NCBI GenBank assembly: GCA_026707745.1
Contig: JAPOWG010000036.1
Coordinates: 1-64,000 of the forward strand
Source of the DNA: Chloroflexota bacterium
Lineage (GTDB): Bacteria; Chloroflexota; Anaerolineae; Aggregatilineales; Phototrophicaceae
DNA: 64,000 nt
Reading direction: 5' to 3'
The notes beneath the pieces are model-generated. The model was given only the letters and a program-made list of their open reading frames with translations. It was not told the DNA's origin and made no database searches. This document shows, piece by piece, positions 12,440-54,872 of this stretch (position 1 is its first letter; each line of letters opens with the position of its first letter). The position numbers and the translations under genes were made by a program.

Positions 12440-12513
12440 GTAGGGGCGATCCGCTGGATCGCCCGACGCATGGAAAGTAATGAATATCGGGCGACTCACA
12501 GAGTCGCCCCTAC
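12440..12513. repeat. Paired-palindrome repeat (REP-like), intact site
   Basis: Two palindromes of the form GTAGGGGCGATC...GATCGCCC and GGGCGACTC...GAGTCGCCCCTAC face each other about 25 bp apart. The same outer core with different inner bases occurs at 19671-19740, 27560, 27971, 28160, 36588-36657 and 54735. The flank TACATTCGCCCTGCGATTTG is the uninterrupted form of the site that holds the MITE at 19467. Confidence 0.75.
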
Positions 12514-12800
12514 ATTCGCCCTGCGATTTGTTGCATTTCTTTGTTGCACTTTCTGAGAAAAAGCAACAGAGGAATATATTTTTCGGGCGTTTCGTCAACA
12601 TGCCCCTACAGTTCGTCCCTGTTTTTGATTCTCATTACCCTCTTGGAATTACTGAGTAGTCGCATCAAACTATTTTAGATCAATCCTGTTGGGCACCCTT
12701 TTTGAAGCCATTGCCCTGGGACACATCACCACCGTATCGCTTACAGGCTGCGAAATGTGCTACGCTACAGTCGCGTTCGCGCTTGAATGGAGGAGACCGC

Positions 12801-16619: not shown

Positions 16620-17876
16620 TCAACTTGAACCGCGGTCGCCGCGCGCAGTCGCGTATATAGCCAGCATTTGCTCCACCTGCTTGTCCAAGGCGAACCGCTC
16701 GCGGATGCGCGCCCGTCCACGGCGGCCCATCTCGCGGCTCAAGTCGCGGTCTGCAAGCAAGCGCCCCAAACGCTCGGCCAGGGTTGCTGTGTCAAATGGA
16801 TTGACGATGAAGCCGGTTTCTCCATCAATTATGATCTCGGGAGAGCCGCCGAAGCAAGTTGCAACGACCGGTTTGCCAGCCGCCATCGCTTCCAGATTCA
16901 CCGTAGGAAAGGTATCGAAAATCACCGAAGGGACGACGACCACGTCCGCCAAGTCATAAGCCGCGCGCAATTCCGCGCCGCCCAGCCAGCCACCGGCGCG
17001 GATCAACGAGCGCAGATGAGAATACGCCGCCGGGATCTGCTCGTCGATGTCTCGAGCGGTCAATGCCAAGACAGTCACCCCGGGCAGCCTCTCCTTAAGC
17101 CTGTCCATGGCCTTCAGCAATGGCACTGTGCCTTTATCAGGCGTCAAGCGGCCCGCGATCAGAACCACCTGTTTGCCAGCCAAGTCGAAGCGGCGCCGCA
17201 GTTCCAGTACCAGGGCTCGATCGGCCTCTGACCATTCCCGCAGATCGATTCCATTGTGAACCACGTCGGCAGGCGGCAGGCCGTTCGCCATGAAGGCCTG
17301 CGCCAAGGCCCGACTTGGTACGGTACGCCGCTCGGCATAAAGGCTGAGATAGCGCCGGATGATTCGATTGCGCCAGGGGTTGTAACGAAAGCGATTCTTT
17401 TTCAGGTTGTAAAAGCGCGGCAGACGATAAGCGTCGGGCAAGTTTATCTGTCGTGGGCCCCCTCGCGTGAAGTGACGGAGTTTGGAATAGGCGAAGGGCA
17501 TGACATCGTGGGCGCTGAAAACTGTGGCGGCGCCGGCGTCTCGCGCGACTTTCAACGCGTGGTAGCTGAGGTAAAAGTGAATATTGTGCGCGTTGACAAC
17601 CTGGGGCTGCAAGCGTAGCAACAGAGCCCGCAATTGGCCGACCGTTCGCGGGTTCCACAATGACAGCCAGGCTCGGAATCGCTCGGGATATACACTGTGA
17701 ATATGATAGGTTGGGACGCCGTCGCGAATCTCTTCAAACGATGCGCCCCTGGTCGCGGCGATGACGTGAACGTCGTGCCCCTCGTCCGCCAAGCCCCGCG
17801 CCAGTCGCCAGACGACCGCCTCCGCTCCGCCGGCGCCTTCAGGAGGTATCTGATCGCTGAGTAGCGCAAGTCTCAT
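16620..17876 (-). CDS. GT4-family glycosyltransferase
   Basis: A GT-B glycosyltransferase of 418 residues. The N-terminal domain starts MRLALLSDQIPPEGAGGAEAVVWRLARGL, the acceptor-side GGAE glycine loop. The C-terminal donor domain has VVLIAGRLTPDKGTVPLLKAM and the E-x7-E-type motif FPTVNLEAMAAGKPVVATCFGGSPEII, typical of retaining GT4 enzymes that use nucleotide sugars for polysaccharide or glycolipid synthesis. The start overlaps the stop of the histidine kinase gene by 4 bp (ATGA). Sugar specificity cannot be assigned. Confidence 0.88.
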   Translation of the reverse strand: MRLALLSDQIPPEGAGGAEAVVWRLARGLADEGHDVHVIAATRGASFEEIRDGVPTYHIHSVYPERFRAWLSLWNPRTVGQLRALLLRLQPQVVNAHNIHFYLSYHALKVARDAGAATVFSAHDVMPFAYSKLRHFTRGGPRQINLPDAYRLPRFYNLKKNRFRYNPWRNRIIRRYLSLYAERRTVPSRALAQAFMANGLPPADVVHNGIDLREWSEADRALVLELRRRFDLAGKQVVLIAGRLTPDKGTVPLLKAMDRLKERLPGVTVLALTARDIDEQIPAAYSHLRSLIRAGGWLGGAELRAAYDLADVVVVPSVIFDTFPTVNLEAMAAGKPVVATCFGGSPEIIIDGETGFIVNPFDTATLAERLGRLLADRDLSREMGRRGRARIRERFALDKQVEQMLAIYATARGDRGSS

Positions 17877-19117
17877 CTGTCGCCTGCGCTGTCATCGCTT
17901 GATCCCTGAGCGAGCGCGGAAATTGCTTCTTGTTTCTTGGCGGGAAATAGGCCTGCCCTCTCTGCCCGGACATTGTCGAAACCGTGATGCGTATCCGGCG
18001 AACACTCCGGCAAGGATATCCAGAAACGCGATCCGCCATTTTCGGGGAATTCCGCGCCGACCGAACCATTCTGGGCATACATCAATTGCTTGACGATCCA
18101 CAAGCCCAAACCGCTGCTTGACTCGCCCCCGGTCGGCCGAGTGCTCAACCTGCCATATTCCTTAAAGAGATTGTCGCGCTCGAAGGACGGGATACCGGGA
18201 CCTTCGTCCGCCACGATGATGACGCCGCATCCGTTTTGCTGCGCCGAGCTTACCGTCACTTTACTGTCATTAAGGCTGAATTTGATAGCGTTGCTGACCA
18301 GATTTGCCAGCGCTTGCACCAGACGCTGTGGATCCGCGAGCACCCAACCGTCCGTTGCGCCAAGTTCCAGGCAAATGTTCTTTTTCTTGGCCGCAAAGCG
18401 ATATTGGTTAACGACGTTTGTCTGTACATCACGCAAGTTGACCGGCTTTATCGTCAGCTCCAGTTTCCCCGTCTGCACTTCCATCATGTCGAGAAAGTTG
18501 CTGATGATGTCGCTCATATTGTCTACCATCAGCCCAATCGTATCCAAGGCATGCGCAACCTCGCCCCTTTCTGTGGCCGCCAGGCGCAGGATGCCTTCCG
18601 CGATTCGTATGTTGTTGAGCGGCGACTTCAGATCGTGCGAAGCCATGCGGAACAAACGCATGTGCAGTTCTTGCGTCTCGGTCAATTCGGCGATGCAGGT
18701 TTCCAGCGACTCTATCAGCGCCTTCACAGCGAGACAGGAGCGGATCCGCGCGAGCAATACTTCGTCGGTACAGGCTCCCGCAATGTAGTCGGCCGCGCCC
18801 AGTTGCAGCGCCGACGCCACTTCTCCGCTTGACGCGGCTTCAGCGACAAATATGACTGGCAAGGGGAAAATGGCGGGCGACTGTTGTATCGCTCCCAGCA
18901 ACTCGCATTCGGTCATATCGTTCAATGGACCGACGACTAACATGAGATCAATATCCGGCAATCGTCGCGCCATATCCAGCCCCGACACGATATTGGTGGA
19001 AATCGAAAGGGCGTATTCCGCGCCCAGCAGTTGCCTGATTCGGTTTCTGTCATTTTGAATCGCGGCAACGACCATAATTCGATTCGCTTTGCCGTCCACC
19101 GTCCTTTGCCTTTCCAT
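17873..19117 (-). CDS. Histidine kinase with N-terminal pseudo-receiver domain
   Basis: A cytosolic 414-residue protein. Residues 12-130 fold like a CheY receiver, but the phosphoacceptor Asp is missing: the strand that normally ends in D reads LMLVVGPLND, and the usual Lys after ADYI is replaced (ADYIAGA). A short helix leads to a HisKA dimerisation domain with H161 in FRMASHDLKSPLNNIRI. An HATPase_c domain follows, with the N box LVSNAIKFS, G1 DEGPGIP and G2 GLGLWIVKQL. So it can probably autophosphorylate, while the first domain senses something by protein contact. No cognate response regulator is adjacent; it shares an operon with the GT4 gene. Confidence 0.88.
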   Translation of the reverse strand: MERQRTVDGKANRIMVVAAIQNDRNRIRQLLGAEYALSISTNIVSGLDMARRLPDIDLMLVVGPLNDMTECELLGAIQQSPAIFPLPVIFVAEAASSGEVASALQLGAADYIAGACTDEVLLARIRSCLAVKALIESLETCIAELTETQELHMRLFRMASHDLKSPLNNIRIAEGILRLAATERGEVAHALDTIGLMVDNMSDIISNFLDMMEVQTGKLELTIKPVNLRDVQTNVVNQYRFAAKKKNICLELGATDGWVLADPQRLVQALANLVSNAIKFSLNDSKVTVSSAQQNGCGVIIVADEGPGIPSFERDNLFKEYGRLSTRPTGGESSSGLGLWIVKQLMYAQNGSVGAEFPENGGSRFWISLPECSPDTHHGFDNVRAERAGLFPAKKQEAISALAQGSSDDSAGDR

Positions 19118-19466
19118 AGCCGCAATTCCAACACCTTAGGATACACGAAGGTCAAGATTAACGCGATAGCCCTGCGATTGGACCCCAGAGCAATCGCATC
19201 AAACTGATGGCGACTGGCATAGCGCAAAACTAGACCAAGAATTAACCACCGAGGGCACCGAGGGTCGCGCAGACACTGACCTACAACACCGAGAAAAGCA
19301 ATGAGATTGTAGTTCTGTCTTTGTTCAATCTTACTTTTGAGCCGCGAATGAAGTTTCGCTTGCGACCTTGTCGCATTGAGGTGACGGAATTAAAGAGAAG
19401 TCACCAAAAGGCTAGAAACTCAGTAGTTGCAAGTAAGTTATGCAACAAATCGCAGGGCGAATGTAG

Positions 19467-19668
19467 GGCTTGTCCGCTACTGGGTCATTTTAAGGCGCTT
19501 TTTTCACCCCTCACCCCCCAGCCCCCTCTCCCACAAGGGGAGAGGGGGAGCTAAGCTTGGCGGAATATGTAATAATTTGTTGATTTTCGCAATGATCGGC
19601 TCCCTTTTTGTATTGTTTCGGTACTATTTCCGTTATCCATGCATATGAATTGCAGTAGCGGACAAGCC
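19467..19668. mobile_element. MITE-like element, copy 1 (202 bp, 16-bp terminal inverted repeats)
   Basis: Ends are GGCTTGTCCGCTACTG and its exact inverse CAGTAGCGGACAAGCC. The interior holds a CCCCTCACCCCCCAGCCCC tract and a CCCTCTCCC-ACAA-GGGGAGAGGG hairpin, then an AT-rich stretch; no ORF of note. It interrupts the repeat whose intact arrangement is at 12440-12530, with TGTA (up to TGTAGGG) on both sides as likely target duplication. The rest of the gap 19118-19936 holds remnants of cac-cgag-type low-complexity repeats and a palindrome pair. Confidence 0.8.
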
Positions 19669-19670
19669 TT

Positions 19671-19740
19671 GTAGGGGCGACTCTGTGAGTCGCCCACCGC
19701 TACTGCTAGAGATTTCGGGCGAGCCAAGGCTCGCCCCTAC
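19671..19740. repeat. Paired-palindrome repeat
   Basis: GTAGGGGCGACTC...GAGTCGCCC followed by GGGCGAGCC...GGCTCGCCCCTAC. It is the right-hand part of the site split by the MITE at 19467-19668. Confidence 0.7.
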
Positions 19741-19901
19741 GACTCGACGACGGAATTTGCATGACTTACCTGGTCATACTTCTGTGCTCTCGGTGTCGAA
19801 GGGCTGTGTCTACGCGCCCGTCGGCGGTAAAAAACAATCTGCAGCGATAGCCCTGCGATTGGCCCTCGCCGCAACGAGTCCGTCCGGACCGCGTAGAAGT
19901 G

Positions 19902-19936: not shown

Positions 19937-20335
19937 ATGTCGAAAAGTTTGCAAGACGCCGACCGCGAAGCGCGCAAGCTGGTCGCCAATTGGACGACGG
20001 GCGCAGCGCTAACCGGATGGATACCTGGCAGCGCGTTTTTCCTCACCGCTGCGGATACCGCCATGATTCACCAGGTCGCCAGCGCCTACGAAGTGAGCGC
20101 CTTCGACATGAACAACCTGTTGTCCGTGCTGGGTGGGGCGGTCGCCAGCGCCATCGCCGGCGGTGTTATCACCGAAGTCGTTGGCATTATCCCGATAGTG
20201 GGCTGGGCGGTGAAGAGCGCGGCGATGGCTGCCAAAGCCAAAGTGATCGGCGACGAAGTGATCCGCTATTTCCGTGAACGGTCCGACCTGCCCGATACCA
20301 AAGTCGTCATTGACGTGGAAATCGACGACGACTAA
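19937..20335 (+). CDS. DUF697-like small membrane-associated protein
   Basis: 132 residues; the sequence runs from a charged helix (SKSLQDADREARKLVANWTTGAALTGWIPG) through a helical hydrophobic hairpin (LLSVLGGAVASAIAGGVITEVVGIIPIVGWAVKSAAMAAKAKVIGDEVIRYF) to an acidic tail. This matches the general layout of DUF697/YcjF-type C-terminal domains, often associated with membrane GTPases, but no GTPase gene is nearby. TGAGGAG precedes ATG 19937, and TATAAT lies upstream, so it is an independent gene. Confidence 0.55.
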   Translation: MSKSLQDADREARKLVANWTTGAALTGWIPGSAFFLTAADTAMIHQVASAYEVSAFDMNNLLSVLGGAVASAIAGGVITEVVGIIPIVGWAVKSAAMAAKAKVIGDEVIRYFRERSDLPDTKVVIDVEIDDD

Positions 20336-27593: not shown

Positions 27594-27795
27594 GGCTTGT
27601 CCGCTACTGGGTCATGCTAAGGCGCTTTTTGTACCCCTCACCCCCCGGCCCCCTCTCCCACAAGGGGAGAGGGGAAGCTGACCTTGGCAGATTCCGTAAT
27701 AATTTGTCGATTTTCGCAAGAATCGCCAATTTTTTTGTATTATTTCGGTATTGTTCTTGTTATCTGCGAGTAAGATTTGCAGTAGCGGACAAGCC
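27594..27795. mobile_element. MITE-like element, copy 2 (202 bp)
   Basis: Same 16-bp terminal inverted repeats as copy 1 and the same length, with several interior differences (for example GAAGCTGACCTTGGCAGATTCCG). On the left it abuts a GGGCGAGCC...GGCTCGCCCC palindrome; on the right it abuts the 189-bp tandem array. The remaining part of the gap 27286-27593 shows nothing codable. Confidence 0.8.
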
Positions 27796-28276
27796 TTACA
27801 ATTTTAGCCAATAAGATGCTTGTGATCGTTGTCCGGTCGCTTTAATAGCCAATCGGATCAAAGCTGTCATGTCCTCTGCTCGCTCAACGGGGGGCAGAAA
27901 CCCCGAAGCATTATGGAGGGAGAGCGCCAATGCAGACCAGGGAATTTCATCTGGGCGATTGCGGGCGACCTGATAGGTCGCCCCTACAATTTTCGCCCAA
28001 TAAGATGCTTGTGATCGTTGTCCGGTCGCTTTAATAGCCAATCGGATCAAAGCTGTCATGTCCTCTGCTCGCTCAACGGGGGGCAGAAACCCCGAAGCAT
28101 TATGGAGGGAGAGCGCCAATGCAGACCAGGGAATTTCATCTGGGCGATTGCGGGCGACCTGATAGGTCGCCCCTACAATTTTCGCCCAATAAGATGCTTG
28201 TGATCGTTGTCCGGTCGCTTTAATAGCCAATCGGATCAAAGCTGTCATGTCCTCTGCTCGCTCAACGGGGGGCGGA
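27796..28276. repeat. 189-bp tandem repeat array, about 2.5 units
   Basis: Units begin near 27798, 27987 and 28176; the third ends within GCTCGCTCAACGGGGGGC. They are almost identical (one indel near TTTTAGCC/TTTTCGCCC). Each full unit carries a GGGCGACC-TGATA-GGTCGCCC palindrome. Because 189 is a multiple of three, a minus-strand frame of 162 codons stays open across the array, made of a repeated 63-residue block. A weak ribosome site and the repeat origin argue that this is not a real gene, but it cannot be excluded. Confidence 0.85.
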
Positions 28277-28333
28277 AATCCCACAAGGGGTGCGCGTAGG
28301 TCGCGTAGACACTGACCGCCGACACAGCACTAC

Positions 28334-28463
28334 GAGAGGGGGAGTTAAGCTTGGCGGAATATGTAATAATTTGTTGATTTTCGCAATGATCGGCTCCCTT
28401 TTTTGTATTGTTTCGGTACTATTTCCGTTATCCATGCATATGAATTGCAGTAGAGGACAAGCC
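28334..28463. mobile_element. MITE-like element, copy 3, left end lost
   Basis: From GAGAGGGGGAG to CAGTAGAGGACAAGCC it is nearly identical to copy 1 (closer to it than to copy 2); the left 70 bp with its inverted repeat are replaced by unrelated sequence. The right terminal repeat has one change. Confidence 0.75.
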
Positions 28464-36239: not shown

Positions 36240-36587
36240 CTTGGGTCCCGGCTCGTTGAAGCTCCTGGCATAAACTGCCAATGTACCAGCCTTTGCAGCA
36301 TTGATACAGGGTATTTTCAAGTCCGTCAGCTGTCGAGAAACCCGGTAGTGGTTACTTTTCGGTTGTATTACTTCGTAGCCAGTCCTCGACATAAGATCCT
36401 TACACCCAAAATACCAACAATTTGCTTGGGGCGACTGACCTCCTCCAGGGTGTCGGCGGTCAGGGTCGAAGCGCTGTGTCGAAGGGCAATGTCTACGCGC
36501 CTACGCGACCTATCACGTCGCCCGAAACATATCCCTCCGCGCTCTCAGTAATTCCAAGAAAATGATGCAACAAATTGCATGGTGAAC

Positions 36588-36657
36588 GTAGGGGCGAGCC
36601 TTGGCTCGCCCACCGCTCCGGCTAGGTTTTGCGGGCGACCAGATTGGTCGCCCCTAC
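36588..36657. repeat. Paired-palindrome repeat
   Basis: GTAGGGGCGAGCC...GGCTCGCCC and GGGCGACCA...TGGTCGCCCCTAC. The flank ATGCAACAAATTGCATGGTGAAC is a diverged form of the flank found at 12513-12540 and 19441-19466. Confidence 0.7.
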
Positions 36658-36711
36658 AGCCGACTATTATTTTCGAGTGCATTAGCATGACTTTGTTGGT
36701 CCTACTTCTGT

Positions 36712-36810
36712 GTCTCTTTTCCAATAAACCCCCTTGCTCATGCAAGGAGCGGGTTTGTTATTTTGTGTGAGCGCGGCAGACCTTCTCGCCGGTTACGCGC
36801 CGAGCGGCTG
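36712..36810 (-). repeat. Dispersed element D, copy 6 (inverted)
   Basis: On the minus strand it reads CAGCCGCTCGGCGCGTAACCG ... GCCGCGCTCACACAAAATAACAAACCC, the hairpin CCTTGC-ATGA-GCAAGG (36732-36747), then TTTATTGGAAAAGAG. It covers the first codons of the open frame that leads into the next gene, which supports a downstream start. Confidence 0.8.
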
Positions 36811-54659: not shown

Positions 54660-54872
54660 GGCTTGTCAGGTACTACAAAACAGAGTCACATTTTCCCCAT
54701 TTTCTAGGCTAATCCAAACGTGCGTAATTATGGAATGCGGGCGACTCACAGAGTCGCCCCTACAAAGCCCGTCTGTATTTTGTGGCTTGGCTCGTCAAAT
54801 AGCGATGTTCGTTACTGTCAGCCAAGTCTCGGCGTCCAATCTGTTCACCACAAATCGAGTAGCGGACAGGCC
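54660..54872. mobile_element. Diverged MITE-like element, copy 4
   Basis: GGCTTGTCAGGTACT at the left and GAGTAGCGGACAGGCC at the right match the terminal inverted repeats of copies 1-3 with three or four changes. The interior differs and holds one GGGCGACTC...GAGTCGCCCCTAC palindrome. Confidence 0.45.

Follow-up and report, generated by a model that had tools for sequence, protein, structure and literature searches.

A MITE inserted at the edge of REP hairpins in a Chloroflexota genome and its probable IS982-like partner

The window, by which we mean the whole 64,000-nucleotide stretch of DNA that was analysed, corresponds to bases 1-64000 of contig C69 in a genome of 4.89 Mb assembled in 118 contigs. 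It carries a short element with no evident coding capacity, located between a pair of divergent ORFs at 17873-19117 (-) and 19937-20335 (+) and delimited by the TIR GGCTTGTCCGCTACTG, which is perfect at 19467-19482 (+) and 19653-19668 (-). Eight TIR sites were found in the window at ≤3 mismatches, versus 0.49 expected. A previous sequence-only reading had described a 202-bp element with perfect 16-bp inverted termini. This description was confirmed, and the alignment of all MITE copies added one terminal base per side (consensus A...T, giving the ends AGGCTTG...CAAGCCT), so that the element is 204 bp long. The features of the locus and the related sequences are listed in Table 1. The hairpins flanking the MITE have the attributes of GTAG-type REPs: they bear a GTAG end and a short palindromic stem, they are dispersed, and they occur as doublets. 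As judged from these flanks, the target of the window MITE is the edge of a REP within a repeated host element, a point that the sequence-only reading had missed.

Table 1. Features of the MITE locus and related sequences (coordinates refer to the window; other contigs are given by name)
Feature	Position	Strand	Remarks
MITE	19466..19669	+	204 bp; perfect 16-bp TIRs with one extra base outside each
Left TSD	19462..19465		TGTA
Right TSD	19670..19673		TGTA; with it the adjoining REP regains its T-GTAG tag
REP doublet	19670..19741		TGTAGGGGCGACTCTGTGAGTCGCCC ... GGGCGAGCCAAGGCTCGCCCCTACG; GTAG-tagged hairpins; MITE at its left edge
Host repeat, MITE-interrupted	19421..19781		~170 bp without MITE; imperfect inverted ends around AAGTAAGTTATGCAA / TTGCATGACTTACC
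Uninterrupted partial host-repeat copy	12489..12557	-	"empty site" of the sequence-only reading
Second full-length MITE copy	27594..27795	+	84% identical; REP adjoining
Truncated MITE copy	28334..28463	+	MITE positions 74-202; 98% identical
Related 213-bp element	54660..54872	+	like but decayed TIRs; other interior; REP-like edge adjoining
31-bp direct repeat, left copy	19163..19193	+	bounds the block missing in G021 and G009
31-bp direct repeat, right copy	19844..19874	+
Uninterrupted host-repeat copy	C67		174 bp, 94.8%
Uninterrupted host-repeat copy	C73		156 bp, 96.2%
Uninterrupted host-repeat copy	C105		156 bp, 95.5%
Uninterrupted host-repeat copy	C34		149 bp, 95.3%

About 20 full-length copies of the MITE and many fragments are present in its own genome, where AAGGCTTGTCCGCTACTG was found at 92 sites with ≤3 mismatches, compared to 12 for the reversed-pattern control. 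The end pairs on contigs C17, C28, C62 and C92 hold differing interiors, indicating that several MITE families use these ends. BLAST matches to the MITE were obtained in 31 of the 33 congeners examined, many of them covering the internal hairpin repeat alone (positions ~30-90). This repeat, CCCCCTCTCCC...GGGAGAGGGGG in the MITE interior (window 19500-19550), is also found alone across the genus and the order. Directly to the right of the second MITE copy of the window, a 189-bp unit that includes the REP GCGACCTGATAGGTCGCCCCTACA is tandemly repeated 2.5 times at 27808-28282, the repeats being 98-100% identical; the MITEs on C37, C96 and C99 are flanked by the beginning of this unit. At L132:1889-2369 and L172:120-380, elements lie end to end with few bases between them (exactly TACA in L172), as if one had inserted into the TSD of the other.

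Might the MITE be a functional intergenic structure, such as a transcribed hairpin or terminator under selection, whose mobility is incidental? Its sequence folds better than shuffled versions (z -4.48), its length is constant among congeners, and it is placed between two divergent ORFs. However, the TIRs and the internal hairpin repeat account for most of the fold, an Rfam search with the MITE returned no match, truncated copies are numerous, and the MITE is missing at the orthologous locus of four close relatives (G021, G009, G008 and G020). We therefore regard this explanation as extremely unlikely.

The target sites were compared in 59 non-redundant full-length copies, 19 from the own genome and 40 from congeners, the latter mostly from close congeners and so not fully independent. 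A perfect 4-bp TSD was found in 42 of the 59 copies, whereas shuffling the right-hand sides gave a mean of 17.2 and a maximum of 30 in 5000 trials; the TSD is imperfect in the remaining 17, by decay or recombination. Other lengths and offsets showed no such signal: the two sides match in about 50 of 59 copies at each of the four TSD positions, compared to 13/59 and 27/59 immediately outside. A 5-bp TSD was rejected, as the fifth base agrees in just 27 copies. The TGTA target duplication of the sequence-only reading was thus borne out, and its length settled at 4 bp by the alignment of the copies. The duplicated 4-mers are mostly TGTA or TACA, more rarely TTTA, TAAA, TATA, TTGA or TAGA.

These sites share a second property. 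A TGTA/GGGGCG... edge, i.e., the tagged end of a REP hairpin of the GTAG type, whose stem is variable, adjoins 43 of the 59 copies, including 15 of the 19 in the own genome. Such an edge is present at only 1.7% of the T[AG][CT]A sites of the window, and at 2.8% of those lying within 400 bp of insertions; relative to these two backgrounds, the own-genome excess corresponds to p ~3e-19 and ~5e-16, respectively. Since the GTA of the tag is part of the TSD, the REP is complete after insertion, as can be read directly from the sequence.

It could be argued that the MITE copies arose chiefly when larger REP composites already bearing the element were duplicated or recombined, and that its own transposition played a lesser part. 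The window and C98 copies have in common the MITE and part of the right REP repeat, several MITE copies of G008 sit in one host context, and both the REPs and the host repeat are dispersed in their own right. Against this, (i) the 4-bp TSDs are specific to each pair, (ii) the REP lies to the left of the MITE in 24 cases and to the right in 18, which a single founder duplication cannot account for, (iii) one host context is occupied in opposite orientations (L260 versus L262), and (iv) uninterrupted host copies exist at the same position. The TSDs and the two orientations largely refute the duplication of composites, which we consider very unlikely indeed. The sequence-only reading had reasoned that identical flanks around all copies would speak for segmental duplication; the flanks vary, and the MITE is found in either orientation with respect to the REP. 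On the evidence of their borders, the MITE copies are independent insertions rather than products of segmental duplication. Recent movement, also proposed at that stage, is supported by the copy at C73:29978-30179, which is identical to the window MITE at 200 of 202 positions and has an unrelated left flank.

The joined flanks of the window MITE match about ten uninterrupted copies of the host repeat in the own genome, the best of which are given in Table 1 and further ones lie on C29, C77 and C86; the host repeat also occurs at window 36544-36717. More generally, uninterrupted counterparts were identified for 36 of the 81 junctions tested, the window junction included, a few of them being tandem neighbours. 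The sequence-only reading had taken the contiguous, inverted flanks near 12489-12540 for the empty site of the insertion. The contiguity was confirmed (89.9% over 69 bp spanning the junction, on the opposite strand), but this sequence belongs to a dispersed repeat with longer and better uninterrupted copies, and is therefore a paralogous repeat copy and not an empty allele. The ~170-bp host repeat with its REP doublet is probably another non-autonomous mobile family, which hosts the MITE.

The orthologous locus was compared in the four relatives that do not have the window MITE. The G021 and G009 loci lack the whole ~680-bp block between the two 31-bp direct repeats, and the G008 and G020 loci carry other inserts. 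None of these four loci has the exact empty allele of the window insertion. By comparison of these loci, the absence would fit gain here or loss in the relatives equally. The ~681-bp block (window 19163-19874) is a recurrent insertion or deletion site.

The sequence-only reading had also predicted an autonomous relative with matching termini. When congeners with few MITE copies were searched, a perfect end pair was found in G023 (C32:135301-136426) around a single ORF of 337 aa. This IS of ~1.12 kb, encoding a transposase of 336-337 aa, has the ends, the TSD and the REP-edge target of the MITE. The copy on C49 of G012 measures 1119 bp between its GG...CC ends and carries an intact ORF of 336 aa; it is flanked by TGTA on either side and by a REP on one. 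Additional full or internally deleted copies are present in G009 (C10), G005, G019 and G022, derivatives of 896, 236 and 217 bp have identical ends, and the IS copies mostly adjoin REPs. Homologues of the transposase were detected in 18 of 34 genomes; G017, G010 and G022 each contain several copies, and contigs of these three genomes terminate within them. Those named in the public genome collection come from MAGs annotated Anaerolineae/Chloroflexota, and one from a bin labelled Bacteroidetes. The AGGCTTGTCCG ends are kept by homologues at 45-51% identity. The predicted relative is thus present and intact in congeners; in the own genome, it is a deleted, stop-containing relic that represents the IS. 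This relic, at C85:225-716, joins residues 1-82, with two in-frame TGA, to residues 290-337, and has matching ends and a REP beside it. No intact IS transposase was seen in the own genome, whose contigs break at such repeats, so that an intact copy could have dropped into assembly gaps; we infer that none is left. The same breakage calls for caution with the assemblies of these genomes. The window element thus has the properties of a MITE: it is shorter than ~300 bp, non-coding and bounded by TIRs, it has a TSD of fixed length and dispersed copies with differing flanks, and it has an autonomous partner with the same ends.

Comparison of the transposase with NF033520 (IS982) gave 115.2 bits, under the NCBIfam cut-off of 130 bits, and the protein also matches PF01609 and PF13612. 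Full-length tblastn matches to annotated members of the IS982 family were obtained (E 2e-20), and D116, D233 and E281 align with the D-D-E of these members. By these alignments, the partner transposase is a DDE enzyme distantly related to IS982, and we refer to it as IS982-like, not as IS982. The structure model of the transposase (pLDDT 35.5) was too poor to use, and a search for PDB relatives by sequence found none.

A different transposase with similar ends might move the MITE, the IS982-like element not being its partner. No intact copy of the IS is present in the own genome, and the MITE and the IS are alike only over the terminal 16-17 bp. However, of the transposase ORFs found between these ends, only the IS982-like one is native there, and it comes with the same TSD and REP-edge target as the MITE; PF01609 has no match in the own genome and PF13701 none in the genus; and where an IS3 or IS1182 element lies between such ends, it is a secondary insertion into a MITE. 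This alternative is thus very unlikely. Among the candidates examined as partner, DUF4096/IS5, PF01609 and IS1380 (PF13701) were rejected, being absent from the own genome or devoid of such an end pair in congeners. Two candidate TIR pairs in G021, with spacings of 1.4 kb and 1.9 kb, were also rejected: an IS3-family element lies inside a MITE with the same ends (L119:1184-2570, G021:C27), and an IS1182-family element within the internal hairpin of a same-family MITE (L120:972-2915, G021:C100).

Taken together, these data make it very probable that the MITE is non-autonomous and mobilised in trans by the transposase of the distant IS982-like IS. Because the sequence common to MITE and IS is limited to the ~16-17 bp of their ends, trans-mobilisation is deduced from the ends, the TSD and the target. 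The IS transposase would recognise the MITE ends, AGGCTTGTCCG(C/G)TACT, and move the element, which would be joined across a 4-bp staggered cut at TNNA, mostly TGTA/TACA, with a strong preference for a TGTA overlapping the 5' GTAG tag of REP hairpins. The 4-bp duplication would recreate TGTA on the REP side and leave the REP intact, making REP-rich intergenic DNA a tolerated landing pad. In the own genome, the autonomous IS would then have decayed to the deleted relic. The REP edge is presumably recognised by the transposase itself rather than by a host factor. A more speculative extension, which we put forward as a tentative and somewhat doubtful idea, is that the transposase directly recognises the GTAG tag and the hairpin, possibly folded into a cruciform or processed by RAYT, that REPs act as safe landing sites regenerated by the TSD, and that REP/RAYT and IS982-like elements co-evolve as layered parasites.

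How does this family compare to known systems? Full-length transposase homology, with ~22-25% identity and an aligned D-D-E, links the IS to the IS982 family (ISPsma1, ISAba9 and others), whose transposases have 293-294 aa compared to 336-337 aa here; no clear TIR was found for ISPsma1 or ISAba9 in the regions retrieved around them. A close parallel is MITECca01 of Cardinium, derived from the IS982-family element ISCca4 (PMC9769881). As the passages on this pair describe it, a ~240-bp MITE has little beyond its ends in common with an IS982-family IS of the same lineage, as is the case here, and the conserved end motif AGMTTGTW resembles AGGCTTGTC of the present MITE. These passages describe no REP targeting, in contrast to the present MITE; moreover, they have the ISCca4 parent intact in its genome, whereas only a relic is found here, and the host phyla differ (PMC9769881).

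The MITE/IS family is new but of a known kind, and its parts were already known. What is new is that an IS982-like element targets the REP tag; the combination of these parts, including a TSD that overlaps the tag, seems not to have been described in the literature that could be searched. Searches joining IS982 with REP, thin on subscription journals, found nothing, and those with the TIR string returned nothing relevant by title, the matches being mostly animal, plant and medical and presumably primers. The family connects a MITE with its autonomous IS in bacteria that have received little study, the named homologues being mostly from MAGs annotated Anaerolineae/Chloroflexota, and target recognition can be tested directly on its many natural targets, for which intact counterparts exist. 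GTAG REPs have been described from Chloroflexi among other hosts (PMC3733652); the hairpins flanking the MITE resemble them in their GTAG, short palindromic stem and doublets, and are here the target and not the mover. REP targeting is known for members of the IS3, IS110, IS4, IS256 and IS5 families (Tobes and Pareja 2006, PMC1525189), which, as here, insert repeatedly into or beside REPs. IS982 is not among the families listed in that 2006 survey, and the present elements provide a clear case of REP-edge targeting outside them, in which, in contrast to those ISs, insertion is directed at the GTAG tag bordering the REP, and the REP itself is left intact by the TSD.
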